Shown one piece after another: positions 5,180 through 62,395 of a stretch of 64,000 nucleotides of DNA. This DNA comes from Clytia hemisphaerica. Its lineage: Eukaryota; Cnidaria; Hydrozoa; Leptothecata; Clytiidae. Numbering within the stretch: position 1 is the stretch's first letter; every line of letters starts with the position of its first letter. Position numbers and translations under genes: made by a program. The stretch lies in contig CACVBU010000798.1 in the NCBI GenBank assembly GCA_902728285.1, positions 13,213-77,212 on the forward strand. Direction: 5' to 3'. A model generated the notes under the pieces. That model was not told where the DNA came from. It made no database searches and was given only the letters and a program-made list of their open reading frames with translations.

Positions 5180-5692
5180 GTCATTTTGCTTGGTTAGGCA
5201 TTTAAACCCACCCCACAGCCTTTAGAACAAGTATCAACCCCTAATTTTGGCTTTCAATTTCCGCGTTTACCCTGCCAAGCCAAACGCGGTGAGTCATTTT
5301 GCTTGGTTAGGCCTTTAAACCCACCCCACAGCCTTTAGAACAAGTATCAACCCCTAATTTTGGCTTTCAATTTCCGCGTTTACCCTGCCAAGCCAAATGC
5401 GGTGAGTCATTTTGCTTGGTTAGGCCTTTAAACCCACCCCACAGCCTTTAGAACAAGTATCAACCCCTAATTTTGGCTTTCAATTTCCGCGTTTACCCTG
5501 CCAAGCCAAACGCAGTGAGTCATTTTGCTTGGTTAGGCCTTTAAACCCACCCCACAGCCTTTAGAACAAGTATCAACCCCTAATTTTGGCTTTCAATTTC
5601 CGCGTTTACCCTGCCAAGCCAAACGCGGTGAGTCATTTTGCTTGGTTAGGCCTTTAAACCCACCCCACAGCCTTTAGAACAAGTATCAACCC
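5180..5692. repeat. 113-bp tandem repeat
   Basis: Units starting gtcattttgcttgg occur at 5180, 5293, 5406, 5519 and 5632, an exact period of 113. The fifth copy stops about half way, near 5692. Copies differ at very few bases, so the array is young or well homogenised. Each full unit contains the inverted repeat ccgcgttt / aaacgcgg around a 13-base loop. The array abuts the 155-bp satellite, with a short T-rich join at about 5157-5179. Confidence 0.95.
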
Positions 5693-6015
5693 CAACATAA
5701 ATATCATAGGGTGAAGATGATTAAACACTGATGCTAGACATATTTTCCCCTTGGATAAAGATCCAATTATACTAGTGCCCAAATTTACCATTGAATACTA
5801 AATCTAGCAATGAAAAAATAAAGGTATTATATACACCGTTGCTATTTGTTCCGTTTGTAATGTTTTTAGAGTACTAAGGCAACAGTTATAGAAGCAATGA
5901 TGCTATTGATTTTGATGAAGGAACCATCATCTTCTGCTGTATGTATGAACAAGTTAAGCTACATATTGAACAGAACTGATGTAACTGTATATTTTCCCGC
6001 GTAATTACATTCGAA
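5693..6015. other. unassigned AT-rich spacer
   Basis: Unique-looking sequence between the 113-bp satellite and the composite insertion at 6016. No convincing reading frame, repeat or RNA was seen. Confidence 0.5.
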
Positions 6016-6030
6016 TATTTACTTCTTTTA

Positions 6031-6718
6031 AGGGCTCTGACCATAGTGAATTTTTCATATTTACCGTGTTTAAAATGTGTTTTCTGAATGATGAAACCAA
6101 CAAAACTATGGCATGTTATACATTTTCTGTTACAAACTATTTCTGAATCTGAAAATTCAAAAGTTGCATTGAAAAAATTTGACGTAGAAGAAAATGAAGA
6201 CTTTTGCGAGGAAGAGTATTTCAGCTTTGAAGAGCTTAGTTTCGGCGAAGAAAAAACATTTTGAAAAATTTTTCGCAGTAGATGGTGTATCTTTTACCGA
6301 CAATAAAAATTTTTGCGGAAGATTTTTGTAAATGCTTCTTGTCTCAAAATCTTCAAAATAGTGCTTTTTCATCAATTTTTCATCTGGATTTTGCTTAAAA
6401 AAACAGTCATAACTTTTGACACATCGTTTTAGAAAAATTTTCCGCAAAATTTAAAATAGTTCAATTCTTTGCAGACAGTGTAAAGAAATTTTGAAACAAA
6501 AAAGTTAATTACCCATTAAAACTAAGCACTTTTTGTAAAAGAGGGTGATGCAACATATTATTAACATCTTTTTAAAGTTCATAACGTCATTTTTACAATT
6601 AAATTCTTAATTACTCTTAAGGGATTCGATTAAAAATCAATTTATAAAGGCAATTCTTTGTTGAAAGTGTTAAGTGTTCAAATACCAAAATCAATTTTTG
6701 GACTATGGTCAGAGCCCT
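6031..6718. mobile_element. TA-flanked inverted-repeat element (MITE)
   Basis: Terminal inverted repeats agggctctgaccatag (left) and ctatggtcagagccct (right) bound about 688 bases. TA lies directly outside each end (6029-6030 and 6719-6720), the target duplication expected of Tc1/mariner-type transposition. The interior has only a short minus-strand frame with no recognisable domain, so this is a non-autonomous element. It sits at the 5' edge of the RTE-like fragment that follows. Confidence 0.75.
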
Positions 6719-28852: not shown

Positions 28853-31800
28853 TTAGTGGAACAAATGTATATTCCTTCTATGGATTAGCGTACACACAAA
28901 TACAATACTGCAGATTATAAAAGGTGGTGAAAAATATTCAGCGTACAAGAAAAAATAATAGAGAGTCAATTTTCCGAAGATACGAAATGCATTTCCAAAA
29001 ACTGATCTAAATCCATCGATAAGATTTGCATTTGAATCTGAGACAGTGTTGAACAAGAGCACTTTGCCTGCTGATTGAGCTTGAAAATAAACAAAACACT
29101 TAATTGCCACAATAGTTACACCAAAAGCTATCTGTCCAGCCATTGTTGGTATCACTATTAACTTTGGAAGAACCAGGAGAGACAAAAGACATCCAGCCAG
29201 TGAACAGCTCATGGCATATCCATAAAATATTGCTAAGGGTCCTTCAAAAACCTTTCGATAAACTAGCACCATCAGAAAGATATAGGTTGAAAATCCAACA
29301 AAAACATGAAGCAAGGACAAAGTGTTCATTTGCCAATGAAAAGTATTGACGGAATACAAAGTAACCATAGCGATTGCAGTCGTTACTGAATATCTTAAGA
29401 CTCCATAACTTAGACATAGTGATAAAATATCCAATTCAAAGAGTTCTCTCCAGCCTAGTAACCTCCTTTCTTGAGAAACTTCTCCATCTGTGTTGCTAGA
29501 TGAGTTATCATCTCTGTCAACAAGAGGTTCTCGTTCGGAGTCCTCCTCCTGCTCTCGACCACGTGCCTCGTCAAGTGGTTCCCGTTCGGGATTCTCCTCC
29601 TGCTTTCGAACACGTGCCTCGACAAGTGGTTCCCGTTCTTGGTTCTCCTCCTGCTTTCGAATGCATGTCTCGACAAGAGGTACCCGTTTGGGATCCTTCT
29701 CCTGCTTTCGACCACGTGCTATTGCAACAGCATCTTCACCAAGATTTTCCAGATCTTTAGAAAGATCGATAACCAAAAACCAAGAAATTATAAAGATTAT
29801 CATTGTTATTGCAGCGATTAAGAATGGGATTGCGTTGTATTTATTTATTTTCCAATTACCGATTTGAAAGTTGATGTATGAGAATAAGATAGGAAGACCA
29901 GGACCAATATTTATTCCAACAGAATATAGAAATTCATACCAACTAAGAAATTTGACCAATTCTTTGTCATTATAACATCTTCGGAATTCACCTAAAATTG
30001 AAAAAATATGATATAGATATTGCTGAAGATGATAGTTATTGAACATATGATACAGAATATCAACATTAAATGGTTTTTATATCTGTGTGTCACAGACACG
30101 TTAGAAACCCAACCCAATTGGAAAAATTGGGTCAAGCTTTCGTCCACGGTGGGAAAATTTCTCCTTTTCTAAATTCGATGGCAAAACTGCACTCCACACC
30201 TTCCACACTGGATTTTTTAGCTTTGAACAACAAGAATTTCTAACCCCTTAGGGTTTTGATACAAATTTTTATCCTCGCTGTGGTAAATTTAACTATACTT
30301 TAATCGGATTAACTTGCGCGAAATTGAACTCGTAAAGTTTAATCTACGTGAAATTTTGAAAACGCTTTTTTTCGGTGGAGGAACCTGCCAAAACCAATGA
30401 AGTCGAACTCCCTATTGGTTGCGAAGTACGGCCATTTTCAGCTTTTTTCAGGTTCATTCAAAATTTAATCCGACTGAAGTCGAATGTCTCGAAATTTACG
30501 ACGTTTACGTTTACAGACGAGCCATTCAGTTAGAAACGTCTTATAAAGGGTTATAAGATAATAAGTATATAAGTTTCAGTTCAGTTTGAGGTCGTTGTTG
30601 TTATTTTCTGCCGCCGCAGTTTTATTATTAGCCCGAGAGTGTCATTTGGGCCCGACGCGAAGCGGAGGGCGCAAATGGCACTAGAGGGCTAATAATCAAA
30701 CTGCAAGGGCAGAATTAATGACAACAACGAACGAAGCCTTAACGCTATTACTATTATTATCCATATCGGACATTCAAACAACGTTTTTTTCTAGCGTCAA
30801 CCAAGTCTTTTCACTTCAATGCAATGACTTTAACAAGTTTTGAGTACCCTTGCGAGCGGGCCGCAAATGACCAAAAAGTGTTTTTTTCTGACGTCAGTTT
30901 AGTCTTTTCGCTTCAATGCAACGACTTCAATAAAATTCCGAGCGGGCCGCAAATGACGTTTTCGCAAAGGGCGGTTAATGATATTTCAGCCCTCTGAAGC
31001 GCGACCCCTTAGTTTTCTCATTGCAGGTATGACTATTTGAGTCATAGAACATTCCAATACCACCCGCCGTTCGAATCTTTAATGGCTTATTTAATGACCA
31101 CTATATAGATAATACTAAACGGCAATTCCAGAGGAATTGTCACGCACATTTTTGGCTGGATACCACCAGTAGGGACCTAGGGGTTCCGCGAACAATGAAC
31201 CATTTGATAGCACCCATAGCTAGACGGGATAAAAATTTTGTTGGAATGGTCCTTAACACCAAACCATTTAGGATTGGAATACAATGTGATCTATCATGCT
31301 GAAAATGATAGAATTATGAGAATTATTTTAAATCCCAAATTGATAATCATATCTTTAGTTCTTTTACAATAACTCGGGAAAACTCGATTTTAATTTATTA
31401 TACTTGGGACGTGGTTTCACTGAAATTTTTAAAAACCCTAGAGAAAAATTTTAGGAAGTGGGAATAAATTAAGTCATTTATTTCCAATCCAGAACGTGGT
31501 TTTACATTACACAAACGTCGGATTCAAAGTAAAATCTATTGTTAGATTTCAAAAATTGCAGTCCTCGAAAACAAAAGAACTGCTACAGATACAATCCGTT
31601 GTCATGATTACGGCGGGGCAAATTTTTTTCCATCAGTGGATGCAGACCTGATTAAGCGGCTGAAGACCTGAATTAACGGCTGAAGACCTAAACCAACGGC
31701 GGAAGACCTGAATCAACGGCCGAATACCTGATTTAACGGCCGAATACCTGATTTAGCGGCGCGTTCTAGGTGCGTTCTGGATGAGAAATAAGTGGCTTCA

Positions 31801-32372
31801 CTTTTTCTTGATTGGGAGAGGTTAAAGATTCTCCTTTAGCCTTTTGGGCTTTAAACTCAATGATCGGGATACAATTTTTTTCTAAAAAATTGATTAAAGA
31901 TGGTGGATATAACTTAGTTCCCCTAAGGCAGGTCAGTGCTAGCTTTTACATTGAAATAGAGTATAAAAAAGATCTTACCACATACTGCAGTTTGCAAGGA
32001 TTCATTGATGCCGCATAGAAATCGTCCAGTCATTACCGACCAAATATGCCAAGGGATTGAATACATTAAGTTCCCAATACATATGACACCCAAATTGAGC
32101 AAAAACACAAATCTTAAATTTCGCGTACGATCAATGTATCGTCCAAAAAGTATTCCGCTTATAAGATTACTAACAGCGAATAAAGTCTCCATTACACTGT
32201 AATAAAATGTTGCTTGAAGTAAAGATAACCCAAAGTTCTCCGAGAAGTAGTAGAGTACAGTCACTTCCAGTGCTTGGCTTTCAATTCCGTAGAGGAGAAT
32301 CAGAATACATGCGAGAGCTGTAGTTCGAGTTCTATTTTTCTTCCATTCGAGATATTCCAATGAGGTTTCCAT
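28853..32372 (-). CDS. MFS transporter, MFSD8/CLN7-like, paralog A
   Basis: Exon 1 is 32372-31979 and exon 2 is 29991-28853, joined in phase across a 1,987-base GT-AG intron, giving 510 residues. Exon 1 holds four membrane segments and the MFS loop 2-3 signature GRYIDRTRNLR. Exon 2 holds segments 5-6, a long charged loop and segments 7-12. The loop has four imperfect ~17-residue repeats, each ending in a variant of EREPLV, an acidic dileucine-type sorting signal ([DE]xxxL[LIV]). Human MFSD8 also has an acidic dileucine signal, but at its N terminus, so lysosomal location is a reasonable inference. Length is close to the family norm. Substrate unknown. Both strands are open over the loop repeat, so antisense frames there are shadows. 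Confidence 0.85.
30389..31398. mobile_element. insertion in the MFS A intron
   Basis: Absent from the matching place in copy B (near 53425). It contains a long hairpin at about 30589-30730 (cgttgttgt ... gcagttttattattagccc, mirrored by gggctaataatcaaactgc ... acaacaacg) and two gcgggccgcaaatga phrases. No coding sequence; ends not precisely fixed. Confidence 0.6.
31645..31763. repeat. 20-bp minisatellite in the MFS A intron
   Basis: Six copies of a 20-base unit, gacctgaattaacggctgaa and variants (gacctgattaagcggctgaa, tacctgatttaacggccgaa). Absent from copy B, where the flanks join near 53645, so it arose or expanded after the duplication. Confidence 0.8.
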
Positions 32373-32472
32373 TATATGATTTCCAGTAACCTTTTGTATT
32401 CCTCAGCTAAAATCAAAAATATGATTTTTAAAATCTTTATCTTTAAAATCTATTATGTATGGTTTTATAAAA

Positions 32473-35063: not shown

Positions 35064-37964
35064 TTATATACATATTTTACAAAGACAAATATTTGTGAGG
35101 CTTATTTCTTTCAGTGAGGATTTAAAAGTTTCGATAGAGGATTCAAGCTTGATTTTTTCAGGGATCTGATTCCAAAGCAGGCTTCCTCGAAATAAGAAAG
35201 ATTGAGTTCCGTAACGTTGTGAATTAGCCTTAGGTATAGACATTAAAACTTTGTTTCGGAAGTTGAATTTTATTTTCTTCGTTACGTAGATTTCTTGCAT
35301 GAACTTCGGATTTAATTTGTTCTCAGATTTGTAGACCTCACAAAGTAAGAAGCAAAGCTGAGTTTCATGAACCGTCTTACATTTGGCGTTTTGCAATAAA
35401 ACTTCATAATCGTTTCTGAAATCACAGAGTAGAGCTCTTAGGGCCCGCTTATGAACTTTAGTGATTTCTTCATATGTGGTTTTATTACAGAACATCCAAA
35501 TGATCGGTGCATAGTTAAATATTGACATAATATAAGCATTAAATAATAACTTTCGCTGGTCAAAATTAAGATAAAAACGAATTCTGTTCAAACTCCAGAT
35601 TCTGGATCTTGCTTTAGAGCAAAGTGAATTGATATGGGTCGCAAAAGAAAGATTGTTATCAATAGTTATGCCTAGAAGCTCAACAGAATCCGTTGATTTT
35701 ATCCTAACATTTCCAACGCTGATTTCTACAGGAAGATTCCTATTTCCTAGAACCAACATTTGGAATTTTCCGGGGTTAGCTTCGAGGTAGTTATTTGAAA
35801 ACCAGGCTAAGATTATTTCTAGGTCAAACTCAAGATTTGAGATGACCTCTTCAAGAGTTTCCGCACAAGAGTGTGAGGTGTTATCGTCCGCAAAATTGCA
35901 GATGCTGGCTTTAACAATAAAAAGAAATAAATCGTTTATGAATATATTAAATAAAAGGGGACCAAGAATTGACCCCTGCGGAACACCTAGAGTGATTTCT
36001 AACCAATCGCTATATTCAGAGCCGATCTTTGTTCTCTGATAGCGATTACTCAGATAACATTTTAGAAGATCGAGACTTTTTGTTTCAATTCCGTAGGCTT
36101 TAAGCTTTGCGATAAGAAGTTTGTGGTCAATGCAGTCAAAAGCCTTTGATAAGTCCATCAGTACTGCTCCCACCTTCCCGGACTCATCAAGACTTTGATG
36201 CCATTGACCAATCATTTGAATTAGAGCATGTTGAGTGCTGTGCTTAGCTCTAAACCCACAGAGTCTCGAATCAAAAATGCCATCAAAGTAGGATGAAAGT
36301 TGGTCGTGCATAATTCTCTCAAATATTTTTGAAAAAGCTGGTAATATACTAATTGGCCGATAGTTTTTCTTCAGAAATTTATCTTCCTTTTTAAAAACAG
36401 GCGTAACCCTTGCCCTTTTTAGACTTTGGGGAAATTTAGAAGTACTGAAGGCAAGGTTTACGAGTCTTGATAATGGCCCTGACAGTATATCAGAGACCAC
36501 TTTGATTATTCTAATGGAAAAAGGACCGCTGACAGATTTATCTTGATTAAGTTTGAGCATAATACAATGGATATCTTCAGGAGTTACTTCGCTAAAAGAG
36601 AAAGACTTGCTTGCAGATAGAGATTCGATGATGCGAAGTATACTAGGATGGTTTTCAAGCGGATCGGTTTCAGAATCTTCTGGAAGACTGCATTCTGAAG
36701 TTTTTAGGCCGAGATGGGAAGCAATATTTACAAAATAGTCGTTAAAAATTTTTGCTATGGAGGCTTCATCATCAACAAGTTTTGATTTATTTGAATCGTC
36801 AAGCAAGAAGATTTTCTCGTGATGTTGGACTTTCTTTGAGAAATATGGTTTTGCAGATTTCCAGAAATTTTCTGATGTCCCTAAATCACGAAAGTATTTT
36901 CTCTTTGCTTTCCTATTCAAATTTACAATATAATTTTTTTGTTTGCGATACAAGGTTTTATAGAGGGGGTTTCCGGTCTTATTTGCTTTGTTTTTGTAGT
37001 ATGAGCGAACCATGATTGCTTTACGTAGGGTTTTAGACATATGAGGTTTTTGATTTCCCCGGACGGTTCGCTTTTTCATTGGTGCATGAGCATCAAGAAT
37101 ATTTTCAAAAGTTGTGCTAAAAGTTTCAAAGTCTGAGAAGTCACAATCAAGATTACGACAGAGGTTGGACCGGAAACCCTTTTCATCAAAATTTTTAAAG
37201 GATCTATATTCAATTATCTTTGGAGGAGATTTTTTAAAGCTAGCTTTGAACATGCTATAAATCAGATGATGGTAGTCACTGATTCCTGTTTCAAATGACC
37301 CACTGTTTTTAAAGCAAGGTGCCCGATTTGTAAGGATCAAATCAATGCATCTACCCTTTTCTGACTTAAAGCATGTTGGCTTCTTAATTAGACTTTTCAG
37401 TGAAAATGCATCAAGGAACTCTGACATATTCTTCTCAGATATTTCCTCATTAAAATCTCCAAAAATCAATACATTTTCATACGTGTCACTATAGTGGTCA
37501 AGAACTTTTGTTAATTCTTCAAGAAACGGTTTTAGCTTTTGTAAACTTGGATTACGATAAATAGAAAGTAGGAGCCATTTAGTTTTTCTCAAATTCAACT
37601 CCAGTGTAAGACACTCAATTCCAGGTGATAGAAGATTATCTTTAAGTTGGCGAAGTGGGAGCTGGTTTTTTACGTAAAGTAGCAAACCTCCGCTGGTTTT
37701 AGAAAAATCAAGTCTAATTGGCTTTTTGAACCCTTTAATCAAAAGCTTGGATTCCGGAAACGAAGAGTCTATCTTAGTTTCTGCTATACAGAGGATATCC
37801 ACATGGGGTAGGATGATTCCCTTTACGTCTTTGAGCTTGTTTCTAATAGAGTTTATATTGAGATATGTAAATAAAATGCCATCTTTTTTGCTCAGGTTTT
37901 GTAAAGGATTTTTTAGAATTTCAGTACCATCGAGGTCGTCAATTTCATCGTCAAGTTCATGCAA
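35064..37964 (-). CDS. LINE ORF2: endonuclease and reverse transcriptase
   Basis: 966 residues with no interruption. The N-terminal apurinic-type endonuclease (about residues 30-245) has YLNINSIRNKL, CIAETKID, LIFGDFNEEIS, CIDLILTN and SDYHHLIYSM. The reverse transcriptase (about 505-770) has RVTPVFKKEDKFLKKNYRPI, DLSKAFDCIDH, GVPQGSILGPLLFNIFINDL and the catalytic FADD at about residues 690-693. A C-terminal region to 966 includes ASSIW-like ARSIWSLN phrases. There is no RNase H. The motif set and the esterase partner place it in the CR1/L2/Rex1 group. It copies element RNA into nicked DNA at the target. All catalytic motifs look intact, so it may be active. Confidence 0.92.
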   Translation of the reverse strand: MHELDDEIDDLDGTEILKNPLQNLSKKDGILFTYLNINSIRNKLKDVKGIILPHVDILCIAETKIDSSFPESKLLIKGFKKPIRLDFSKTSGGLLLYVKNQLPLRQLKDNLLSPGIECLTLELNLRKTKWLLLSIYRNPSLQKLKPFLEELTKVLDHYSDTYENVLIFGDFNEEISEKNMSEFLDAFSLKSLIKKPTCFKSEKGRCIDLILTNRAPCFKNSGSFETGISDYHHLIYSMFKASFKKSPPKIIEYRSFKNFDEKGFRSNLCRNLDCDFSDFETFSTTFENILDAHAPMKKRTVRGNQKPHMSKTLRKAIMVRSYYKNKANKTGNPLYKTLYRKQKNYIVNLNRKAKRKYFRDLGTSENFWKSAKPYFSKKVQHHEKIFLLDDSNKSKLVDDEASIAKIFNDYFVNIASHLGLKTSECSLPEDSETDPLENHPSILRIIESLSASKSFSFSEVTPEDIHCIMLKLNQDKSVSGPFSIRIIKVVSDILSGPLSRLVNLAFSTSKFPQSLKRARVTPVFKKEDKFLKKNYRPISILPAFSKIFERIMHDQLSSYFDGIFDSRLCGFRAKHSTQHALIQMIGQWHQSLDESGKVGAVLMDLSKAFDCIDHKLLIAKLKAYGIETKSLDLLKCYLSNRYQRTKIGSEYSDWLEITLGVPQGSILGPLLFNIFINDLFLFIVKASICNFADDNTSHSCAETLEEVISNLEFDLEIILAWFSNNYLEANPGKFQMLVLGNRNLPVEISVGNVRIKSTDSVELLGITIDNNLSFATHINSLCSKARSRIWSLNRIRFYLNFDQRKLLFNAYIMSIFNYAPIIWMFCNKTTYEEITKVHKRALRALLCDFRNDYEVLLQNAKCKTVHETQLCFLLCEVYKSENKLNPKFMQEIYVTKKIKFNFRNKVLMSIPKANSQRYGTQSFLFRGSLLWNQIPEKIKLESSIETFKSSLKEISLTNICLCKICI

Positions 37965-37970
37965 AACACG

Positions 37971-39122
37971 TCAACAGTTTATAATACTTTTCAAATTATT
38001 TTGAAGTTCATCGGTCCCATTAACATTGAGATGCAGTTTACTGCCATTAAGGTGCTTACCGGGATCGATGCCACTATTATCAAGAAAACCAATGTTGCAT
38101 TCATTACACTGATGCTCCAAGATCTCGTTTACTTTCATTACTTTCTGATTCAGGTCGTCTCCTCTTTGAACAATGCCAGACACGATAACGCCAGTGTTTT
38201 GATTTGTTTCGTTCACCGATCTCGCCAGGGCAACAACATTTTTTGAAATTTCTTCCGGCTCTTTTGTTTTCAAGTCATTGGTTCCACAGTGTATGATTAC
38301 AAGGTCTGGTTTTTGTTTGAGTGTCGGTATAATGTAATGCTTCATGCAATCAGTTTTTGCTCCAGGAAAAGTTTTCACTACAACTTTGTTATCTTTATTT
38401 GTGAGTTGATATCCTTTGACGTGTTTGATTATCGAGTCACCAACAACTGCAACAACCCTTTTATTATTATTGCCATTATTACTGTCAGTGTCTCCTTTTT
38501 TTGAATTATTTTTGCGCGATTTACGGGTTGTAACGTTTCCCTTTTGTTTGGGTGCAATTATAATGTCATTAATGTCATCATCAAATGAACTTGAATTTTC
38601 TTTAATAAAAAGTGTGTCGTATCTATTATCAAGACTAATTTGTTCATTTTGAGTGCTTTTAGAGTGTTTGATAGGATTTTTCGGGAACTGAAAATCATCA
38701 CTATTTTTGTATTTTTGTATGTTTTGTGTTTTGATAGATTTTTCTTGTAACAGAGCGTAGATAAGATCGTCACGGTTTTCAACTTGTTTTCTCAAAAAGT
38801 CTATTTCCCGTTTCAAATGTTTTAGGAAATCCTTTCCCTCTGAATGAAAACTTTGTTCAGGTCCTCTAAGGCTCTCATCACTTGACAGCTTCAATAATTC
38901 AAGTTCGTTACTCACTGTTTTCGAAATGAAGATTTTAATCTCGTCCATAATGTCTTTCTTCAAATGATTTGTAAACTGCTCATCGATAAATGCCTCCGTT
39001 GTTCTGATCTCCTTTTGAAAACTTGTATCAAGCTCATTCATTTTGTAACATACGATTTCAAAGAACACAAAACAAAGCCAAAATGTTAAAATTTGAAAAT
39101 TTTCAAGTTTATGAAACAACAC
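37971..39122 (-). CDS. LINE ORF1: coiled-coil and SGNH esterase domain
   Basis: Open for 383 codons from 39122; the ATG at 39041, giving MNELDTSFQKE, is the more likely start because the preceding 27 residues are a hydrophobic stretch without domain match. Residues roughly 1-120 from that start are charged and heptad-like. A basic stretch (RKSRKNNSKKG) precedes the esterase: VAVVGDSIIKHVKG (block I, GDS), IIHCGTNDL (block III, GTND) and LHLNVNGTDEL (block V, with His). Esterase ORF1 proteins of this kind are known from CR1-group LINEs, where they bind RNA and membranes. The stop is only six bases from the ORF2 start, so ORF2 may be translated by reinitiation; that is inference. Confidence 0.85.
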   Translation of the reverse strand: MLFHKLENFQILTFWLCFVFFEIVCYKMNELDTSFQKEIRTTEAFIDEQFTNHLKKDIMDEIKIFISKTVSNELELLKLSSDESLRGPEQSFHSEGKDFLKHLKREIDFLRKQVENRDDLIYALLQEKSIKTQNIQKYKNSDDFQFPKNPIKHSKSTQNEQISLDNRYDTLFIKENSSSFDDDINDIIIAPKQKGNVTTRKSRKNNSKKGDTDSNNGNNNKRVVAVVGDSIIKHVKGYQLTNKDNKVVVKTFPGAKTDCMKHYIIPTLKQKPDLVIIHCGTNDLKTKEPEEISKNVVALARSVNETNQNTGVIVSGIVQRGDDLNQKVMKVNEILEHQCNECNIGFLDNSGIDPGKHLNGSKLHLNVNGTDELQNNLKSIINC

Positions 39123-39170
39123 GTCTGCACTCTCCGATCTGTAGCGATCAACTCCCTTTTTGTGTATATA

Positions 39171-40109
39171 GGGGAAAGATTCCAGAAAAGTAACAAGAAT
39201 CTTAGTGCGGAAATGGGAATCTTATACAAACAACGTACCATGGCTCAAAATGAAAATCCTAATTAGCAAAAGGTGTATCAAGATCGGTGAAGTTTGATTG
39301 AAGCTCGATGAGTTTGATTTATTACCTTATAGCCCATTCTTTTTACATTCCAACGGCTTATTAGCAGACGTCCACGCTAAAACTTAAAGAGCGAGGCAAT
39401 ATCTATCATCCCATCGGGGAGGAAAAGCTGGAACTTTTACTAACCAAACTTCATCGAATAAAAAACTGTCATCATTAACGAGGGACCCGCTGTACATTGT
39501 ACGGTGGTGTACGGTGGGGCTGGATCTAAATGTCCTTTGTACGACGGTGAAAATAGGTTAATTTGAAATCTGCTGTATTATCTGTACACCCCACCTTACC
39601 CACCGAAAATCACTGTACAATGACAATGTATGGCAGTGTCTAGGCAGGGTTGTTTCGATTATACAAAAATGATTGCTGAATTTCAATTGACATGATTTCT
39701 AAGAAATACCGTGAGATCGGGTAACTTGCATAAGCCCTCAAATGAATTACCCATTTGGTCATTAAAATACAAAGTTAAATCAAAACAAAAATGGTAGGCT
39801 AGAGCTGCAAGCGGAGCTGCATAGTTCATTTGTTTTGAAATTTTGCTGCTTTGATTGGTCAGTCATTTGAATTTGATGGCTGTGCAAGTTACCCTCTGTT
39901 ACCCTCCCCTCAAGTTACCCGAACTTCACGGTACTTGCTAAAAATGACTCTTTGTCACAACTGGTTTCACTATTAACACATAACTATCTGGTGAAAAAAG
40001 AAAAAAAAGATCATACCTCTGCTGTTTGTAGTTTTGGTGAAGAAGAGAAGAGAGGATTAGTAATGATGTTGTTTGTTGTGGAAAATTAACTCTTTTTGTA
40101 CTACTTACT
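39171..40109. other. intergenic
   Basis: A short block at about 39490-39620 repeats gtacggtggtgtacggtgg phrases. Otherwise no feature supported. Confidence 0.35.
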
Positions 40110-51317: not shown

Positions 51318-54220
51318 TTAGTGTGACAAATGTAAATTCCTTCTATGAATTAGCATACACACAAATAATATACTGCAGATTATAAAAGGAGGTGAAAAAT
51401 ATTCAGGATATAAGAAAAAATAATAGAAAGTTGATTTTGCGAGGATACGAAATGCATTTCCAAAAACTGATCTAAATCCATCGATTAGATTTGCATTTGA
51501 ATCTGAGACAGTGTTGAACAAGAGCACTTTGCCTGCTGATTGAGCTTGAAAATAAACAAAGCACTTAGTTGCCATAATAATTACACCAAAAGCTATCTGT
51601 CCAGCCATTGTTGGTATCACTATTAACTTTGGAAGAACCAGGAGAGACAAAAGACATCCAGCCAGTGAACACGCCATGACATATCCATAAAATATTGCCA
51701 AGGGTCCTTCAAAAACCTTTTGATAAACTAGCACCATCAGAAAGATATAGGTTGAAAATCCAACAATAACATGAAGCCAAGACAAAGTGTTCATCTGCCA
51801 ATGAAAAGTATTAATGGAATACAAAGTAACCATAGCAACTGCAGTCGTTACTGAATATCTTAAGACTCCATAACTTAGACATAGTGATAAAATATCTAAT
51901 TTAAAGAGTTCTCTCCAACCTAGTAACCTCCTTTCTTGAGAAGCTTCTCCATCTGTGTTGCTGGATGAGTTATCATCTCTGTCGACAAGAGGTTCCCGTT
52001 CGGGGTCCTCATCTTTCTCTCTTTCACGTTCCTCAACAAGAGGTTCCCAATCGGGGTCTTCCTTCTGCTCTCGAACACGTGCATCAACAAGTGGTACCCG
52101 ATCTTGGTCCTCCTCCTGCTTTCGAACACATGTCTCAACAAGAGGTACCCGTTCGGGATCATCCTCCTGCTTTCGACCACGTGCTATCGCAACAGCATCT
52201 TCACCAAGTTTTTCCAGATCTTTAGAAAGATCGATAACCAAAAACCAAGATATTACAAAGATGACTAATGTTATTGCAGCGGTTAAAAATTGGATTGCGT
52301 TGTATTTATTGATTTTCCAGCTACCGATATGGATATTGACGTAGGAGAATAAGATAGGAAGACCAGGACCAACATTCATTCCAACAGAATAAAAAAATTC
52401 ATACCAACTAAGAACTTTGACCAATTCTTTGTGATTATAGCATCTTCTGAATTCTCCTAGAATTGAAAAAATATGATATAGATATTGTTGAGATGATAGT
52501 TATTGAACATATGATACAGAAAATCAACATTCAATGTTTTGAAACCTGTGTGTCACAGACACGTTAGAAACCCAACCCAGCTGGAAAAATTGATTCAAAT
52601 TTCGTCCCCGGTGGGAAAATTGCCCATTTTTTTTAATTCGATTGAAAAAATTGCACTCCACACCTTCCACACTGGATTTTTTAGCTTTGAACAACAAGAA
52701 TTTTTAACCCTATATGGTTACGATAGAAGTTTTTATCATCGCTGTGGTAAATACAGGAGAGTTTCTTTAACTCGAACTTCTTTACTTTAATTGGATTAAC
52801 TTTTACGAAATTAATTCTTGCGAAAATGCGTAAGATTGCTGACTTGCGATATTAAAGTTTATTCACGATAAGTGTGCACTCTTTTTTCTTTTACCTATAA
52901 CTTTTGAAGGAATTCTTAAATCTTTATAAATTTGGTATCATCGGAAAGATATTAGTGAGTGGAACAATTTAAAATAAAAAAATATTTAAAAAAATTCTAA
53001 AAATGAAGATCAAAATGAAAAAGAAAAAAATGAAGATCTAGTAGAAAACTATCTCTCTGCTATAACTATCATTTTCACTGAAGTAAATCATTGATCATCG
53101 AACGTTATCACTGTGAAAAAATATTTCAAAAATGTTTCAAAAATGTTTTCTGCTGTTTTTTGGGGTCAATCACTTATCAACTTTATATCATAACTTTATA
53201 TTGAATAAATACTTTAATGAATTTTTTTCACAGTGATGACCTCATAAGATCAAAAAATCTCTCCAGTGAAAATGAAAGTTATAGCACTTTTCTACAAGAT
53301 CTTCATTTTTTTCTTCTTCATTTTCATCTTCATTTTTAGAACTTTTTTAAATATTTTTTTATTTCAAATTGTTCCACTCACTAATATCCACGTGAAATTT
53401 TGATAATGCTTTTTCGGTGGAGGAGCCAGAAGTACTTTGTTATACTTGGGGCGTGGTTTTCACTGAAATTTTTAAAACCCCTAGAGAAAGTTTTTTGGGA
53501 ATTTGAAAATTAAGTCTCATATTTTTCCCACCCAAAACGCCCGTGCGTTGTTTTTACACAAACGTTGGATTGAAAGTAAAATCTATTGTTACCCGTTAGA
53601 TTTAGAAAAATACAGTCCTCGAAAACAAAGGAACCGCTAGGAATGGGAACTAACTGGATTCACTTTTTCTTGACTGGGAGGGGTTAAAAATTCTACTCTA
53701 CCCCTTCGGGCTTTAACTCAATGATCGGGATACCATTTTTTTTCTAAAAAATTGATCGAATATGGCGGATATAACTTACCCCCAGGTTAAACCAGTGCTA
53801 GTTTATACGTAGAAAAAAGACCTTACCACATACTGCAGTTTGCAAGGATTCATTGATGCCGCATAGAAATCTTCCAGTCAATACCAACCAAATATGCCAA
53901 GGGATTGAATACATTAAGTTCCCAATACATATGACACCCAAATTGAGCAAAAACACAAATCGTAAATTTCGCGTACGATCAATGTATCGTCCAAAAAGCA
54001 TTCCGCTTATAAGATTACTAATAGCAAATAAAGTCTCATTTACACTGTAATAAAATGTTGCTTGAAGTAAAGATAACCCAAAGTTCTCCGAGAAGTAGTA
54101 GAGTAAAGTCACTTCCAGTGATTGGCTTTCAATTCCATAGACGAGAATCAGAATACATGCGAGAGCTGTAGTTCGAGTTCTACTTTTCTTCCATGCGAGA
54201 TATTCCATTGAGGTTTCCAT
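51318..54220 (-). CDS. MFS transporter, MFSD8/CLN7-like, paralog B
   Basis: Exon 1 is 54220-53827 and exon 2 is 52456-51318; lengths (394 and 1139 bases), phase and total (510 residues) equal paralog A. The intron is 1,370 bases. The proteins are alike throughout; most differences lie in the charged loop, where B also has four repeats but with RVPLV, WEPLV and EREPLV versions. GRYIDRTRNLR, the loop 2-3 signature, is unchanged. The reading frame is intact in both copies, so both may be functional. The ATG METSMEYLAWKK aligns with that of A. Confidence 0.85.
52948..53388. mobile_element. fold-back element in the MFS B intron
   Basis: gatattagtgagtggaac ... aaaatgaagatc at the left and gatcttcatttt ... 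gttccactcactaatatc at the right form arms of about 150 bases. Absent from copy A. A diverged relative lies near 56447-56640 (gatattcgtgagtggaac). Non-coding. Confidence 0.75.
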
Positions 54221-54599
54221 TATGTGATTTCCAGTAACCTTTTGTATTCCTCAGCTAAAATAAAAAATTTGATTTTTAAAATCTTCTTAATATGTATGGT
54301 TTTATAAAGTTTGATAATATTATTTGAAATAATATCTGAAATTCATTACATTACATACAAATCAAAAATGCGTTCTCAAAATTTCTAAACTATTCAAAAT
54401 ACACGATTGCAAAAATATGTGGCGATAGCAATCTAAAGTTGATGAACAAACGGTTATTCATATCTAGATTTTGGATGGATCAGGTCGGGTTAGCGTGAGG
54501 CATGGCCACGAACTGAATTGATATTTTCACTGTTCAGTTGGTAGCCAGGAATTGAATATGATAAAAATACAGACCGACAACTGCTCCTCCTACTTTCAC

Positions 54600-55715
54600 T
54601 GTTCAGTTCCTGGCCAAGATTCCACCCATGATCAGTTCAGCTCGTAGCCAGAACCCCACCCAAGATCATTCATTTCGTAGCCGAACCCCCCTCTGATCAG
54701 TTCAGTTCGTAGCCAGAACCCCACCCATGATCAGTTCCTTTCGTAGCCAGAACCCCACACAGGAGCAGTTCAGCTCGTAGCCAGAACCCCACACAGGATC
54801 AGTTCAGCTCGTAGCCAGAACCCCACCCAAGATCAGTTCAGTTCGTAGCCAGAACCCCACCCATGATCAGTTCAGTTCGTAGCCAGAACCCCACCCATGA
54901 TCAGTTCAGCTCGTAGCCAGAACCTCAACTGAGATCAGTTCAGCTCGTAGCCAGAACCCCAACCAAGATCAGTTCAGTTCGTAGCCACAACTCCACCCAT
55001 GATCAGTTCAGCTCCTAACCAGGGTGCTACCCAAGATCAGTTCAGCTCGTAGCCAGAACCTCAACTGAGATCAGTTCAGCTCGTAGCCAGAACCCCACCC
55101 ATGATCAGTTAAGTTCGTAGCCACAACTCCACCCATGATCAGTTCAGTTCGTGGCCATAACTCCACCCATGATCAGTTCAGCTCGTAACCAGGGTGCTAC
55201 CCAAGATCAGTTCAGTTCAGCTCGTAGCCAGAACCCCACAAAGGATCAGTTCAGCTCGTAGCCATAACCCCACCCATGATCAGTTCAGTTCGTAGCCACA
55301 ACTCTACCCAAGATCATTTCAACCCCACACAGGATCAGTTCAATTCGCAGCAAGAACCCCACACAGGACCAGTTCAGTTCGTAACCAGGTCCCACCCATG
55401 ATCAGTTCAGCTCGTAGCCAGAACCCACCCATGATCATTTCAGCTCGTAGCCAGTGCGCTACCCAAGATCAGTTCAGCTCGTGGCCAGAACCCACCCATG
55501 ATCAGTTCAGCTCGTAGCCAGAACCTCAACTGAGATCAGTCAGCTCGTAGCAAGAACCCTACCCAAGATCAATTAATTTTGTAGTCAGTAAGCCACCCAT
55601 CCATCAGTTCACTTTGTAGCCATGACCTCACCCAAGATCAGTTCATTTCATAGCCAGAACTCTGTCTATGATCATTGCAGTTTGTGACTAGGAAAGACCC
55701 CACCCATGATCAGTT
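54600..55715. repeat. 34-bp satellite array, left arm of Merlin
   Basis: About 32 units of gatcagttcagctcgtagcc-agaaccccaccca, with the last bases varying (cat, caa, cag). Several units are shortened or changed (for example agggtgctaccc). The array decays toward 55700. A phrase like the element's own end (aggtcgggttggcctgaggc) lies at about 55822. Confidence 0.9.
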
Positions 55716-55906
55716 CAGTGTGTGGCAGGTTTCAAACCATGATAATTTGCATTCGTGAACCAGAACAAATTCTAATTTTTGACTTCGTAATAAAAGCCAG
55801 GACCCATATCCCCTTTCCTCAGGTCGGGTTGGCCTGAGGCACGGGTAAAAACTGTACTTGTGAATAAAGTCACACGTATACATTGTACCCAAAACTATTT
55901 TTATTG

Positions 55907-56077
55907 ATCGAATTCACTAGTATAGTTTATACCCGCTTCAAATATATTTTACACCCGTGATCAAATATACTTTGTACCCGTGATCTAGTATACTTTATAC
56001 CCGTGATCAAATATACTTTACACCCGTATTCATGTATACTTTACACCCCTGGTCAGGTATACATTGTACCCGTGACT
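55907..56077. repeat. 23-bp tandem repeat inside Merlin
   Basis: About six copies of acccgtgatcaaatatacttt-ac and variants. Located just inside the left satellite arm. Confidence 0.8.
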
Positions 56078-57189
56078 GAAACAGATTTGTTTAATTTTGT
56101 ATTAAATTTCTCTGATCTTCACATTCGCCGGACCCTTTAGAGCAAAGCGTGGTCCTTGTAGAATGGACTATCTGTTATGAAATAATTTTGGATTAAAGTT
56201 AACGCCAAATGAATAGTTTTAGATTCAAGCAAAGGGAATGTAAATTGAGACAAGGGAAAATTTTGAGAACCTGATTGCTTTTATTTTTAATAGTCTTTAT
56301 AAAAAATGAACGATAAAAGATGTTCGATTGTATAATCATCATTAAACAATCTAAAGTCTGTCTCGAAATAATTTGCAGCTGGAGAAAAAAATGGCTGTAA
56401 CCTTTTGATAGAATTCGAATCAAGTTGCGATTTTGTGCTCGTTAAAAGATATTCGTGAGTGGAACATTATCAAGTAAAAAAATTGAGAAAAAAAAGGAAA
56501 ATGAAAATGAAAAATGAAGAAGAAAAAAATCAACTTTTTGTAGAAATGTGGTATAATTACCATTTTCACAGGAGTGACTCTTCAATCTTAGATCATCATC
56601 AATGTGAAAAAGTTTTTCAAAAATATTCATTCAATCAAAAGATATCAAACAAAGTTTATTGCTGGTTGATCGACAAAAGGCTGTTTTTTTGTCGTTTTTT
56701 ACCAGTTTTTACTAATTTAACGAAAGTCAAATAACTATTTGGTTGAATATTACATAAAGATTAAAGCACATATGGTTCATTTTGGTCCATCATTGTGGAT
56801 AATAGATATTGACTGCAGTTATGATGTTATCAAATGGTCGATCCAGTCCATACCAATCTCTTAAAAAGAAAATATACCTATGTTAGATAAAAAAAGTGTC
56901 TTTCGCTAAAAAGAAGCCTTAGATTTACGTTTTTAGATTGTAAAAAAACATGCAGGATTATCATGAAAGTGAAAAATAACGGAAACATAAGCTCGATTCG
57001 AGTTTAGCTTTTAAGTTTTTGTATAGTTATGGTAGTTATAATAAGTTATATTAAGTGCTTTCATACCTCCACATGAAAATATTGTAGTTCGATTCCTTTC
57101 ATTGCTTTCAATTTAAGCTTGAAGCGATTCCAATATGATTCAATATGCTAATGAAAGAAAAAGAAACATTATTGCATAAGTTATATTTT

Positions 57190-57430
57190 GTAGGAGGAGC
57201 CCCCCCCCCCCCGCGGCACCCCTTATCACGCCCATCAAGCAAAATTTTTCTCTATCACGTAATCACGAAAATTGCTGGAGGTTTGTCATCACGCAAAAAA
57301 TAGCGAAAAATAGCCCAAATCACGCATCACACCAAAAATCTTGATCACGCCATCACGACGCGACAAAAATCTCTAATCACGCTATCACGTAAGAAAAAAG
57401 CCCCAATCACGCCATCACGCAAACCGCTGG
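57190..57430. repeat. ATCACGCCATCACG degenerate repeat
   Basis: aatcacgccatcacg and close variants recur about eight times at 57215-57420 after a run of C at 57194. A similar cluster (ttcacgccgtcacgc, gatcacgccaattc) lies at about 60600-60715 at the other end of the Merlin core. Confidence 0.6.
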
Positions 57431-57719
57431 GGGCCTCTAGCAGAGCAAGAAAAGAACTAGGAAACCTTGTAGTATTGGTAAGTTACAGAGAAATATGTCT
57501 TTGAAACTAAAAACCTTTCCTTTCGGAAGCAGATCGTAATATTGTACATTGAAATAATTTTACAAATAATGACCATTGAAAATATAATTGGATAAGCAAG
57601 TTATAACAGGAAAACGAAAAGAAAGTAGATATATACACCCTCTTTAGAGCTATTAGACTTACCTGTGTGTGAGCACCTGTGACAGGGTCAACAAAATGAT
57701 ACGTATGATTCACGGTGTT

Positions 57720-58906
57720 CCCTGGTAGAAAATCTTGATAAGATCTTACCAAGATCTTTTAAAGAAACTTGGCAAGAACTTTGTAGGTTTCTTCTCAAGA
57801 TCTGTGCAAAGAACTTTAAAGATCTTGACAAGATCTTGACACGATCGTTTAGGATCTTTAAAGATCTTTAAGGATTCTTGAAGGTTTTAAAGATCTTTCA
57901 AGAATCGTATTCAAAAATATACACACCCAAAAGATAAATCTGCTAAATTTTCTCCTTTCAACTAATAAAGAAATCATAAGATTCTTAGACCTGAATATTA
58001 ATGGTTCCTAAATTTTAGAATATTTGCCTCGACTTTGACAATTACAAGATCTCAAAACAGATACACATGAGATTTTTTAACTTCAAATCAGTCTAACTGA
58101 CGAGTTAGGCTAACTGTCTAGATCGCTATTTATCCGGTATTATACTCCACCCCATTGTTTTCTTCGCCCTTACTTGTCAGCGCTAAATTACTCATTGTGG
58201 TGTATACAATATAGACTCTGTTGTGTAGCAATCTACTAGTTTGCCGTAATTCTACAGATATCTGTAGAAATATGAAATCTACATATTTTGTAGAATAATA
58301 ATTCTACCCTATATACCCTATTTGTAGGGTTGTATGTAAATTTGATATTTAAATTCTTTAAAAAAAGTCAAAATCGAAGATTTTATCATAACCACAAATT
58401 TACGTGTTATTGTGTTTATTCAACAAGATTCTTAACCCGAACTTTATAAGAAACACTAAGAATCTTAAAATTTCTTTGCATATTTGTCAATTAAGATTTG
58501 GAAAGTCTCTTTATAAGAACTTGATAAGAAACGCTAAGAATCTTAAAGTTTCTTTGCATATTTGTCAATTAAGATTTGGAAAGTCTCTTTATAAAAACTT
58601 CATAAGAAACGCTAAGAATCTTAAACTATTTTATGGTTGCAAGATTTCATAAGATTTCATAAGATTCTTCTTAAGAACTTAATAAGAAACCTAAATTTTC
58701 TTACTATGAATGTGTGCGAAGAATCTTGACAATTCTTAACAATTTCTTGACACGATCTTTAAAGATCTTTTTGTAATAAGAAATTTTCAAGATTGCATAA
58801 GAATCTTTGTAAGATCTTACAAAGATCTCTTAAGATTCTTACTTGTTAAAGATCTTTAAAGATCTTTAACGATCTTTTCAGATCTTATTAAGAATTTTTA
58901 CCAGGG
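57720..58906. mobile_element. MITE inserted in Merlin transposase exon 3
   Basis: ccctggtagaaaatcttgat at the left and the complement attaagaatttttaccaggg at the right. tt flanks both sides (57718-57719, 58907-58908). Taking out the element and one tt brings the transposase codons together in frame. The body is dense in aagatctttaaagatctt phrases and has a 78-bp direct repeat at about 58440-58630. Confidence 0.85.
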
Positions 58907-59302
58907 TTGTGCTGAATGCAGTTTGGCACAAACTGTTGTAAACGATTGTAGGCGCGCCATTCATCACTATGAATAACACTGTTAGGATTTAAAACTCGAT
59001 TAATGATACCAACCAAAGTCGGACGGTTTCTCCTATTGACGATTTCCATATATCCTTTTGCTAGAGTAAATCTTGTATCTACTAGCCCAAAAACCCAAAC
59101 TGGTTGTGCCCGTCTTCCTCGACCTCCCTGTAAAAAAAAAGCTAAAGCTACTCACTAACCATTCTCCTAAATCAAAGAGCGATTTAAAATATGCATCACA
59201 TTCTATGCCTCTTTTTAGAACATTGAGGTAGTAAATTTGAATTAGCAAATAGTAAATGAGATCATCAAGAGCTTTCTAAAATCTAGGAAACGTATTATAG
59301 TA

Positions 59303-59405
59303 CAGTTGAATCCCGATAAGTAGTAGCTTAACTGGGCCGAGAAAAAGGTGGTACTACTTAGCTGAGTACTACTTATCCGTGGTACTACTTATCGGGATTC
59401 AACTG
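59303..59405. mobile_element. 103-bp pogo/Tigger-like MITE
   Basis: cagttgaatcccgataag at the left and cttatcgggattcaactg at the right with TA outside both ends. CAGT-starting ends with a GATAAG core and TA duplication are typical of pogo/Tigger elements. It lies in an intron of the Merlin transposase. Confidence 0.8.
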
Positions 59406-60721
59406 TATTTATAATCCAGCTAAAATCAACATACTCTTTGAGCATGTTGGAATTGACTTTCGTCAATCTGTACAACAAAGTTTATACCACCACCACCAAG
59501 AGTAATTGGGTTCTTTGCAGCTCCCGAGTGCATATTCCTCTTAATTTCTGAAACATTTTGATCACATGCTCTTTTAGGATACCGACTATATTTGTAGTTT
59601 TGGTCATTGATATCTTACTCGCCCACAGATAAATAACAAAGAATAGATCTGGCAGCGAAACTCTTGTCCGACCCCCCCCCCTTAGGAAATTTATTTGAAA
59701 TTTTAGACCCACCTTAAGGTGAGGACGTATGAGGTTTTGAATTTTAATAACTCCGCCAACTTTATTTATAATTACTACCATCCCATAAAACCTTCCAAGT
59801 ATCGAAAGCTGAAAGAAAAATGAAAGACTCACCATCGATATCCATCACAGCATCCGTCGTTTCGTTCCAATCGCATTGGTAATTGACAACCAGGGCAAGC
59901 TTTAATAACACTGATAAGTCCTTGCCCTTGTAAGAAGTGTATAATGGCAATTTTATCGTTGCCAAATAACAAAGCTCCCCATCTCTGCAAAAAGCGTCTT
60001 TGTACAGCAGCCATTCCTTCGCATTAACAAAAGATCAGCCTCACATTTGAATTTTATTTCGGTGGAAATATATAAATTCCCGACTGCTCTGTCTGATGCC
60101 TGGCCGCTTTATTATAGGAAACAAATTTTAAAGCCTCTTATCAAAAAGCTTTCGGTTGATAAAAGTCTAGACAATGTATTCTTGTTTTAGAAAGAAATAC
60201 GAACATTGTTATTTGTGACCTGCTTAAATAGGAAAACTACTTATTACAAGAATCACTTTTCAGAAAGAAATCTAGAAATATGACTCATAAATTGGACTAT
60301 GAGCCCCGATAATCAGCCGGATTCTTTTCATACTGTAATATTGTCTTATTCTAAAGGCGTGATTTTTTTCGGGGATACGGTAATTTTCAGATCGGATCTT
60401 TGCTGTGATGGGTCTTCATTTTTGTCAAAGACTTTCTTCAAATCAAATAAAAGGTAAATAACGATCAACGGGCAAAAATTTGTTTAGAAGACAAGGCATT
60501 TTTCACGGTCTTTTTTTATCACTTCGCAAGAATATTCTACTTTAGAGATCTAGACATCAAAATGAGAGCCCCCCTCCCAGCGGACCTAAAATTCGAGCCA
60601 TAACGCCAATTTTCTTTCAGATTTCACGCCGTCACGCTTGAAAAATTCCATTTCGCGATCACGCCAATTCTTTTACCATTTCGCGCCACCATGCCTGTAA
60701 AATTTCTTTCATTCCAGTCCT

Positions 60722-62240
60722 GACTACGAACTGAACTAATCATGGGTGGGGTCCTATACGGTCTGACTTGATCTAGGTTGGGGTTCTGGCTACGAACTGA
60801 ACTGATCCTGTGTGGGGTTCTGGCTACGAAATGAACTGATCATGGGTGGGGTTCTGGCTACGAGCTGAACTGATCTTGTGTGCGGTTCAGGCTACGTACT
60901 GAACTGATCATAGGTGGGGTTGTGGCTACGAACTGAACTGATCTTGGGTGGGGTTCTGGCTACGAGCTGAACCGATCCTGTGTGGGGTTCTGGCTACGAA
61001 CTGAACTGATCATGGGTGGGGTTCTGGCTACGAACCGAACTGATCCTGTGTGGGGTTGTGGCTACGAAATGAACTGATCATGGGTGGGGTTCTGGCTACG
61101 AGCTGAACTGATCTTGTGTGCGGTTCAGGCTACGTACTGAACTGATCATAGGTGGGGTTGTGGCTACGAACTGAACTGATCTTGGGTGGGGTTCTGGCTA
61201 CGAGCTGAACTGATCCTGTGTGGGGTTCTGGCTACGAACTGAACTGATCATGGGTGGGGTTCTGGCTACGAGCTGAACTGATCTTGTGTGCGGTTCAGGC
61301 TACGTACTGAACTGATCATAGGTGGGGTTGTGGCTACGAACTGAACTGATCTTGGGTGGGGTTCTGGCTACGAGCTGAACTGATCCTGTGTGGGGTTCTG
61401 GCTACGAACTGAACTGATCATGGGTGGGGTTCTGGCTACGAACCGAACTAATCTTGGATGGGGTTCTGGCTACGAACTGAACTGATCCTGTGTGGGGTTC
61501 TGGCTACGAACTAAACTGATCATGGGTGGGGTTCTGGCTACGAACTGAACTGATCATGGGTGGGTTTCTGGCTACGAACTGAACTGATCTTAGGTGGGGT
61601 TCTGGCTACGAACTGATTTGATCATGGGTGGGGTTCTGGCTACGAACTGAACTGATCCTGTGAGGGGTTCTGGCTACGAAATGAACTGATCCTGTGTGGG
61701 GTTCAGACTAAGAAATGAACTGATCATGGGTGGGGTTCTGGCTACGAGCTGAACTGATCCTGTGTGGGGTTCAGGCTTCGTACTGAACTGATCATGGGTG
61801 GAGCTGTGGCTACGAACTGAACTGATCTTGGGTGGGGTTCTGGCTACGAGCTGAACTGATCCTGTGTGGGGTTCTGGCTACGAACTGAACTGATCATGGG
61901 TGGGTTTCTGGCTACGAGCTGAACTGATCCTGTGAGGGGTTCTGGCCACGAAATGAACTGATCATGGGTGGGTTCTGGCTACGAGCTGAACTGATCTTGT
62001 GTGGGGTCCAGGCTACGTACTGAACTGATCATGGGTGGGGTTGTGGCTACGAACTGAACTGATCTTGGGTGGGGTTCTGGCTACGAGCTGAACTGATCCT
62101 GTGTGGGGTTCTGGCTACGAACTGAACTGATTCTGTGTGGGGTTCTGGCTACGAACTGAACTGATCATGGGTGGGGTTCTGGCTACGAACTGAACTGATC
62201 TTAGGTGGGGTTCTGGCTACGAGCTGAACTGATCATGGGT
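60722..62240. repeat. 34-bp satellite array, right arm of Merlin
   Basis: About 44 units of tgggtggggttctggctacg-agctgaactgatca, the reverse complement of the left-arm unit. A multi-unit pattern recurs (for example 60880-61010, 61100-61230 and 61280-61400 share the order cggttcaggctacgtactg, ataggtggggttgtgg, ttgggtggggttctgg), so this arm also has higher-order structure. Confidence 0.9.
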
Positions 62241-62395
62241 GGAATCCTGGCCAGGAACTGAACAGTGAAAGTAGGAGGAGCAGTTCTCGGTCTGTATTTT
62301 TATCATAATCGATTCCTGGCTACCAACTGAACAGTGAAAATATCAGTTCAGTTCGTGGCCATGCCTCACGCTAACCCGACCTGATCCTTTTGGAT

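Follow-up and report, generated by a model that had tools for sequence, protein, structure and literature searches.

Merlin-type transposons of Clytia hemisphaerica carry satellite arrays in both ends, built from a tip motif that is a candidate transposase-binding site

Why some transposons bear long repetitive ends, and how satellites begin and spread, are old questions, and both are raised by a single locus in the hydrozoan Clytia hemisphaerica. The window analysed here is a stretch of 64,000 nucleotides (assembly GCA_902728285.1, contig CACVBU010000798.1, positions 13,213 to 77,212, forward strand), and the transposon in question occupies positions 54477-62387 of it, where the remains of a transposase gene lie between two mirror-image arrays of a 34-bp satellite. 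What kind of element is this, does it stand alone, and do its arrays serve transposition? The reading that we favour, at a probability of about two in three, is that a motif located at the transposon tips, termed M, is a candidate transposase-binding site which was amplified into the arrays, and that the element and its relatives, built on one plan in at least six tip classes, would represent a Merlin parallel of the Galileo and Foldback elements.

The limits of the element are marked by an identical 8-bp target-site duplication, TTTTGGAT, at 54469-54476 and 62388-62395. The outer 160 bp align without gaps to their inverted counterpart with 5 mismatches (97% alike), in agreement with the complementary ends and the 8-base duplication reported by an initial annotation, which had been made from the letters of the window alone. 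Comparison of the ends defined a left terminal part (54477-54621, forward strand), consisting of the constant tip GGATCAGGTCGGGTTAGCG, an inverted copy of the motif (rM), a loop, M itself and a spacer, and a right terminal part (62243-62387, reverse strand) with the tip, the rM/M pair and the spacer. The left satellite arm (54622-55733, forward strand) and the right arm (60716-62242, reverse strand), which mirrors it, follow inwards. By Tandem Repeats Finder the 34-bp unit occurs in 31.0 copies on the left (54622-55660) and in 45.5 copies on the right (60720-62263), and a stricter count gave 29 and 44 units in opposite orientation, with none in one shuffled control; the arms thus hold 29-31 and 44-45.5 units, which bears out the "about 32 and 44" mirror-image units first estimated. 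The array-bearing arms reach element position 1257 on the left and begin at position 6240 on the right. Just inside the left arm, at 55819-56075 (forward strand), sits the decayed end of an older element, with a tip, a motif pair and a 23-bp array of the C91/CCGG class (~79% identity over ~257 bp). This region is also found in the other seven copies of the family described below. The window family appears to have acquired its present arms on the outer side of an earlier end, and arm replacement of this kind is among the ways for a lineage to exchange its satellite.

The initial annotation had also placed IS1595-like transposase exons in the middle of the element, and profile searches bore this out. 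The piece 59151-58888 on the reverse strand matched PF12762 (DDE_Tnp_IS1595) with E=2.6e-9, better than the curated cut-off, and the three other transposase pieces of the four scanned, exon A included, gave no Pfam match singly. After GT/AG splicing of the exons of a sister copy, C835, a 200-residue stretch was aligned to positions 20-150 of the 153 in PF12762 with E=6.7e-21, and no other Pfam family was matched up to E=1. The gene model, drawn by eye, lies entirely on the reverse strand. Exon A (59833-60014, MAAVQRRF...DGYRW), taken from an open reading frame and delimited by eye from splice signals, encodes the N-terminus and the first half of a Cys-rich segment, with 54% identity in a sister family. 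Exon C (59435-59658), of uncertain start and frameshifted in the window copy, carries the first catalytic D (QIDESQF). Exon D is present in two parts, at 58907-59127, with the second catalytic D (HSDEWRAY) and the PF12762 match, and at 57663-57719 (NHTYHFVDPVTGAHTQ). Exon E (57067-57147) carries the catalytic E (HIESYWNRFK). The window copy is defective, as the exon with the second D is split by a nested insert of 1,187 bp (57720-58906, with ends CCCTGG...CCAGGG placed by eye and a TT duplication), absent in 7 sister copies, and the preceding exon is frameshifted. The insert is rich in AAGATCTT-like repeats.

The QIDES and HSDEW blocks are present in 8/8 copies of the window family and sister families are alike in this respect; IESYW (IESFW in C207) was found in the 7 copies whose exon was retrieved by script and is visible in the sequence of C786 too. 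The tips start with GG (GGATCAGGT). Because the PF12762 match, the D, D and E blocks, the 8-bp duplications and the GG tips together agree with the definition of Merlin as given in PMC8101967, we assign the window element on these sequence characters to Merlin, the IS1595-like superfamily of DNA transposons that move by cut-and-paste, and the profile search, which might have pointed to another superfamily, gave the same assignment. It is extremely improbable that the element belongs to a different superfamily making 8-bp duplications, such as hAT or P, and merely resembles Merlin. Its array-bearing arms do far exceed the 24-462 bp reported for Merlin terminal inverted repeats (TIRs) in PMC8101967, a range that is descriptive and not defining; but PF12762 alone was matched by the spliced exons, all three catalytic blocks are in place, and GG-starting tips with 8-bp duplications are found as in Merlin. 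No THAP domain or P-type transposase was detected in the pieces and spliced exons scanned, in which PF12762 was the sole match above the cut-off. Zn_Tnp_IS1595, a domain whose absence counts as a Merlin character, gave no Pfam match in exon A or in the spliced sister exons, but CxxC-like pairs precede the catalytic domain in sister families. A search of solved structures returned a single row at chance level (E=0.41).

To find further copies, the genome assembly (417 Mb, 951 contigs) was searched with the first 124 bp of the element, which gave 25 matches. Eight copies have both ends, facing inward and 5.8-12.8 kb apart, and all eight (8/8) are bounded by perfect 8-bp duplications that differ in sequence from copy to copy. 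This count omits C346, C381, C605 and C489, which have one end in the stretch read around each match, and the weak C939, C727 and C327, and an element of 234 bp, C509, is counted separately. The initial annotation had allowed that other copies might lack a transposase core or have ends that never coincide with duplications; neither was found, since the core, either complete or as large portions, is common to all eight (~91-99% identity over the longer alignments), PF12762 is matched in 8/8, and the ends coincide with duplications throughout. The copies share the same ends and vary in array length, as had been anticipated, with 9-44 units in arm A and 25-46 in arm B (27-49 by another count). 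Differences to the nearest unit averaged 0.99 for homologous arms of different copies, 2.01 for the two arms within a copy, and 2.04 for opposite arms between copies. The possibility that arms homogenise each other within a copy was considered and rejected on the last two values: the arms within a copy are no closer than opposite arms elsewhere, and therefore were inherited rather than equalised inside a copy.

As an account of the window element the initial annotation has stood. The element is not a lone case, however: the genome holds a whole group of such Merlin families with different units. A tip pattern common to the families, GGATCAGGTNNNGTTANCG, has 214 matches in the genome, 110 forward and 104 reverse, against 0 for the pattern read backwards. 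Pairing of the tips rests on 191 of these 214 places, 23 being left unpaired. On this basis, neighbouring tips less than 25 kb apart face inward in 66 cases, outward in 1 and in the same direction in 6, and 67 tip pairs were defined by the exact pattern, 62 of them spanning 3.4-24 kb (median 8.7 kb) and five less than 1 kb. The pairs, which cover 0.14% of the genome, hold 18 of the 68 places that match PF12762 genome-wide (92 candidates scored), and a PF12762 place occurs in all six common tip classes. The genome contains at least six related tip classes with a common building plan. The tip pattern was also seen in viral contigs (108 stretches, one match per row shown, unpaired); this was judged to be chance in a very large collection and was not used.

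Arrays in both ends were present in all of ten further elements from six tip classes, with units of 23, 25, 36 or 45 bp. A second family is represented by C769 and C854, each with one of the 68 PF12762 places, which have 36-bp arrays at both ends and the duplications CTAGATCC (C769) and AGAAATTT (C854). Eight more elements sampled at both ends have arrays in both (8/8), with a unit of 25 bp in C3 and C16, of 45 bp in C508 and C12, and with three different 23-bp units in C91, in C472, and in C193 and C75; their duplications are perfect in 6/8 and absent in C193 and C75. Altogether, 18 large elements were read at both ends; arrays are present in the two ends of 18/18, and an 8/8-base duplication in 16/18. 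Long, internally repetitive TIRs, a trait of Galileo and Foldback, are present in the window element and in other families. At C3:498049-520049 one satellite-armed Merlin lies inside another of its own class, and the sister copies L043 and L045 have the empty site, with 3 and 1 substitutions respectively, which demonstrates transposition directly. In the three sister families for which both tip and unit are known, C3, C91 and C769/C854, exon D shares 76-87% identity with that of C835. More distant IS1595-like transposases occur at loci L026-L039; exon D detects 9/14 of these, with identities of 31-44%. A CCGT-class tip pair at C373:160490-167747 is apparently inserted in a 36-bp array of another class.

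Tip and array are arranged on a common plan. From the outside inwards, an end is made up of the tip, then rM and M separated by a short loop, then a spacer around TTTTACTGACCA, and lastly the array, the unit of which joins a family-specific M of ~20 bp to a linker that varies in length. The seven elements tested all have M as an inverted pair (rM...M) in the tip and again within the unit. When the unit was compared with the tip past its first 19 bp, the observed score was reached by 0/500 shuffles in 5/7 elements and by 1/500 in 2/7, and in 7/7 the forward match fell near tip positions 53-75 and the reverse match near 22-50. The unit of one family compared with the tip of another mostly gave a chance-level score. 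M is also better conserved than the linker. For the 34-bp family (564 units), conservation was 0.935 at the 20 M positions and 0.816 at the 14 linker positions (p=9e-6), and with 164 distinct units the values were 0.919 and 0.784. The same difference was obtained for the 36-bp (p=0.0004), 25-bp (p=0.004) and C472 (p=0.04) families and, not significantly, for the 45-bp family (p=0.08); the comparison covers these five families, and a linker is almost absent in one or both of the other two, C91 and C193/C75. The motif shared with the tip and the conservation of M suggest that the arms may provide many transposase binding sites, as the initial annotation had proposed. The array periods 23/34/45 and 25/36 step by 11 bp, near one helical turn; this was noticed post hoc and is not evidence.

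Mobility was shown for reduced elements too. C435, 99 bp in length, consists of the tips alone and has the duplication AAATGTTT on both sides (8/8), while C277 (949 bp), with tips plus one array, has the perfect duplication ACAAAATC (8/8). The one-armed structure was found for 36-bp arrays with tips at both edges, namely C277 and two elements in C34 (3,255 and 2,561 bp). On one side these carry a full end; on the opposite side there are only ~41-46 bp of tip, and there rM passes into the array in register. Array matches nearly fill the first C34 element and C277, and the second C34 element has gaps. The flanks of the two C34 elements are nearly identical, and they may therefore be one insertion duplicated and not independent events.

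Such elements bear on a different origin of the arrays, in which the arms would have been captured from existing genomic satellites, or the element would now feed true free satellites. The initial annotation had expected free 34-bp arrays elsewhere, and here it was not supported, as no clear one was seen among those listed of 158 matches; these fall at loci with a tip of the window family, apart from one weak match at C395. Arrays of the 36-bp unit at first looked free, being seen away from exact tip pairs (twice in C34, and in C541, C527, C504, C832 and C373), but a tip search and the end sequences showed that most of them border on a tip on at least one side: at both edges in C277 and the two C34 arrays, at one edge in C541, C504 and C832, and as part of an end in C527 and C373. 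Duplications of 8/8 at C277 and 7/8 at both C34 arrays also argue against free satellites, and every row listed for the 25-bp array is on a contig that also bears tips of its class, 40 of 100 candidates having been scored. The search covered three units in assembled sequence, among the matches listed, with a single edge examined in several of the 36-bp arrays. Capture or release of free satellites is very improbable in our estimate; as far as the listed arrays show, the satellites travel as parts of transposons and are built from a motif already located at the tips.

A more serious competitor holds that the arrays are passive: tandem duplications close to the tips would lengthen and shorten through replication slippage or unequal exchange and contribute nothing to transposition, and M would simply be what was duplicated by chance. 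The wide range of unit numbers in close copies speaks for this, and so does the lack of any closer relation between the arms within a copy (2.01) than between opposite arms of different copies (2.04). C435 moved without arrays, which means that arrays are not required in cis for movement. In the 36-bp family the tip search found seven pairs of 82-153 bp (C687, C745, C796, C332, C802, C882, C38) and four large ones, and array-bearing elements are therefore not clearly dominant. The predominance of large elements among exact tip pairs (62 pairs above 1 kb against 5 below) was at one point taken as a sign of benefit, and was dropped since the exact pattern misses small elements. Against passive arrays stand the higher conservation of M over the linker in 5/5 families tested, one not significantly, and the presence of arms at both ends of 18/18 large elements with units that differ by family. 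These two observations favour a role for the arrays; small elements that moved, or may have moved, without arrays speak for a passive origin, which we consider the less likely of the two.

Besides the dispensability of arrays in cis and the many small elements, several findings weigh against an amplified binding site. Among the small elements, the 99-bp C170 has no matching duplication and the duplication of the 234-bp C509 agrees in 7 of 8 bases, as do those of the one-armed C34 elements, and among the large ones C193 and C75 (2 of 18) have none that match. The boundary of M was placed by eye once unit and tip had been seen. In the tips of C3 and C472 the unit of a sister family outscores the family's own, and M is therefore related among some families. 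The transposase itself presents a difficulty: a Cys-rich segment, RRCxxPCRR...GTxFxxW, precedes the catalytic domain in sister families and is missing, as judged by eye, in 8/8 copies of the window family, and the by-eye gene model gave no active transposase for that family among its 8 copies. The end of the catalytic-E exon is missing in 6/8 of them as well, and is kept by C835 and the sister families. Given these two losses, the window family is probably non-autonomous now and moved in trans by the transposases of sister families.

If M is indeed an amplified binding site, the following course of events may be proposed. The DDE transposase would cut at the tip, and M would be recognised by the DNA-binding part of the family's transposase or by an accessory protein. 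The array would have arisen through tandem duplication of M, would be retained for its benefit to transposition, and would be altered by slippage or unequal exchange. In multiplying M, the arrays may make binding stronger or more specific, or promote synapsis, along the lines suggested for Galileo. A deletion between the rM of one tip and the units of the opposite arm, which have the same direction, would yield the one-armed elements. A wider proposal can be put forward tentatively, and we give it somewhat less than even odds: each family would multiply its own putative binding motif into working satellite ends, the motif changing while the main catalytic exon stays up to 87% alike, and recombination between the tip motif and the opposite arm would repeatedly yield transposable satellites of up to ~3.2 kb with 8-bp duplications.

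With respect to known systems, the families described here share with Merlin as reported by Kalb Lopes et al. 2021 (PMC8101967) the IS1595-type DDE transposase, the 8- or 9-bp duplications, the GG tips and the occurrence of several families per genome. They differ in having ends of 1.1-1.9 kb which both hold mirror-image arrays. According to the same report, some Merlin families contain internal tandem repeats of few units, and Merlin was suggested as a spreader of proto-satellites; in contrast, the arrays here have dozens of units per end, derived from the tip motif. Merlin in other animals is mentioned in PMC10294476 and PMC7599744. In Galileo, of the P superfamily in Drosophila, a terminal stretch of ~40 bp conserved between families is followed by family-specific TIRs of more than 1 kb with tandem repeats (PMC3573991, PMC3688188), and this order of a conserved tip followed by long, repetitive, family-specific ends is the same as in the present families. 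However, the superfamily and the DNA-binding domain are different, and Galileo is reported with few long repeats (~210 bp in one subfamily) compared with dozens of 23-45-bp units. Binding was demonstrated for the Galileo THAP domain, with one site lying ~70 bp from the tip and two more within the first two repeats (PMC3688188), whereas here it is suggested by the motif match and its conservation. The TIRs of Tetris, a Foldback element, have tandem repeats of ~220 bp; these repeats share 37 bp with the outer part of the TIR and give rise to satellite-like arrays (PMC4079207). The sharing of sequence between tandem repeats and outer TIR is similar; Tetris has no known transposase in that description, whereas the core is identifiable here and the arrays are bounded by tips where both edges were checked.

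In elements of the CACTA (En/Spm) and hAT superfamilies a short binding motif recurs many times close to the ends, dispersed subterminally and unlike the satellite arrays of dozens of units seen here. Beyond PMC8101967, no precedent for a satellite-armed Merlin was found among the literature titles and openings of abstracts listed, Repbase and its Merlin tandem-repeat table lying outside this search. What may be new is that a different superfamily has arrived at the solution known from Galileo and Foldback, here with a larger number of families and of units and with one-armed satellites that are mobile. Galileo and Tetris, as published, come without a demonstrated active transposase. A single genome with at least six tip classes, different satellites, linked transposase cores, and minimal (~100 bp), one-armed and full elements offers a series in which the benefit of arrays to transposition can be tested directly, and it shows one path to mobility for a satellite.

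The remainder of the window contains other repeats and genes. A 5-kb array of ~32 copies of a 155-bp repeat occupies 204-5157 and is adjoined by 4.5 copies of a 113-bp repeat (5180-5693, 98% match). Two similar gene copies are located at 28853-32402 and 51318-54250, ~22 kb apart, and both hold about four copies of a 51-bp repeat within the open frame; a piece of the former (31923-32402) matches the major facilitator superfamily (MFS) transporter family PF07690. A non-long-terminal-repeat retrotransposon at 35064-39221 (reverse strand) encodes a reverse transcriptase and an endonuclease, with a GDSL-type esterase domain in the preceding frame.

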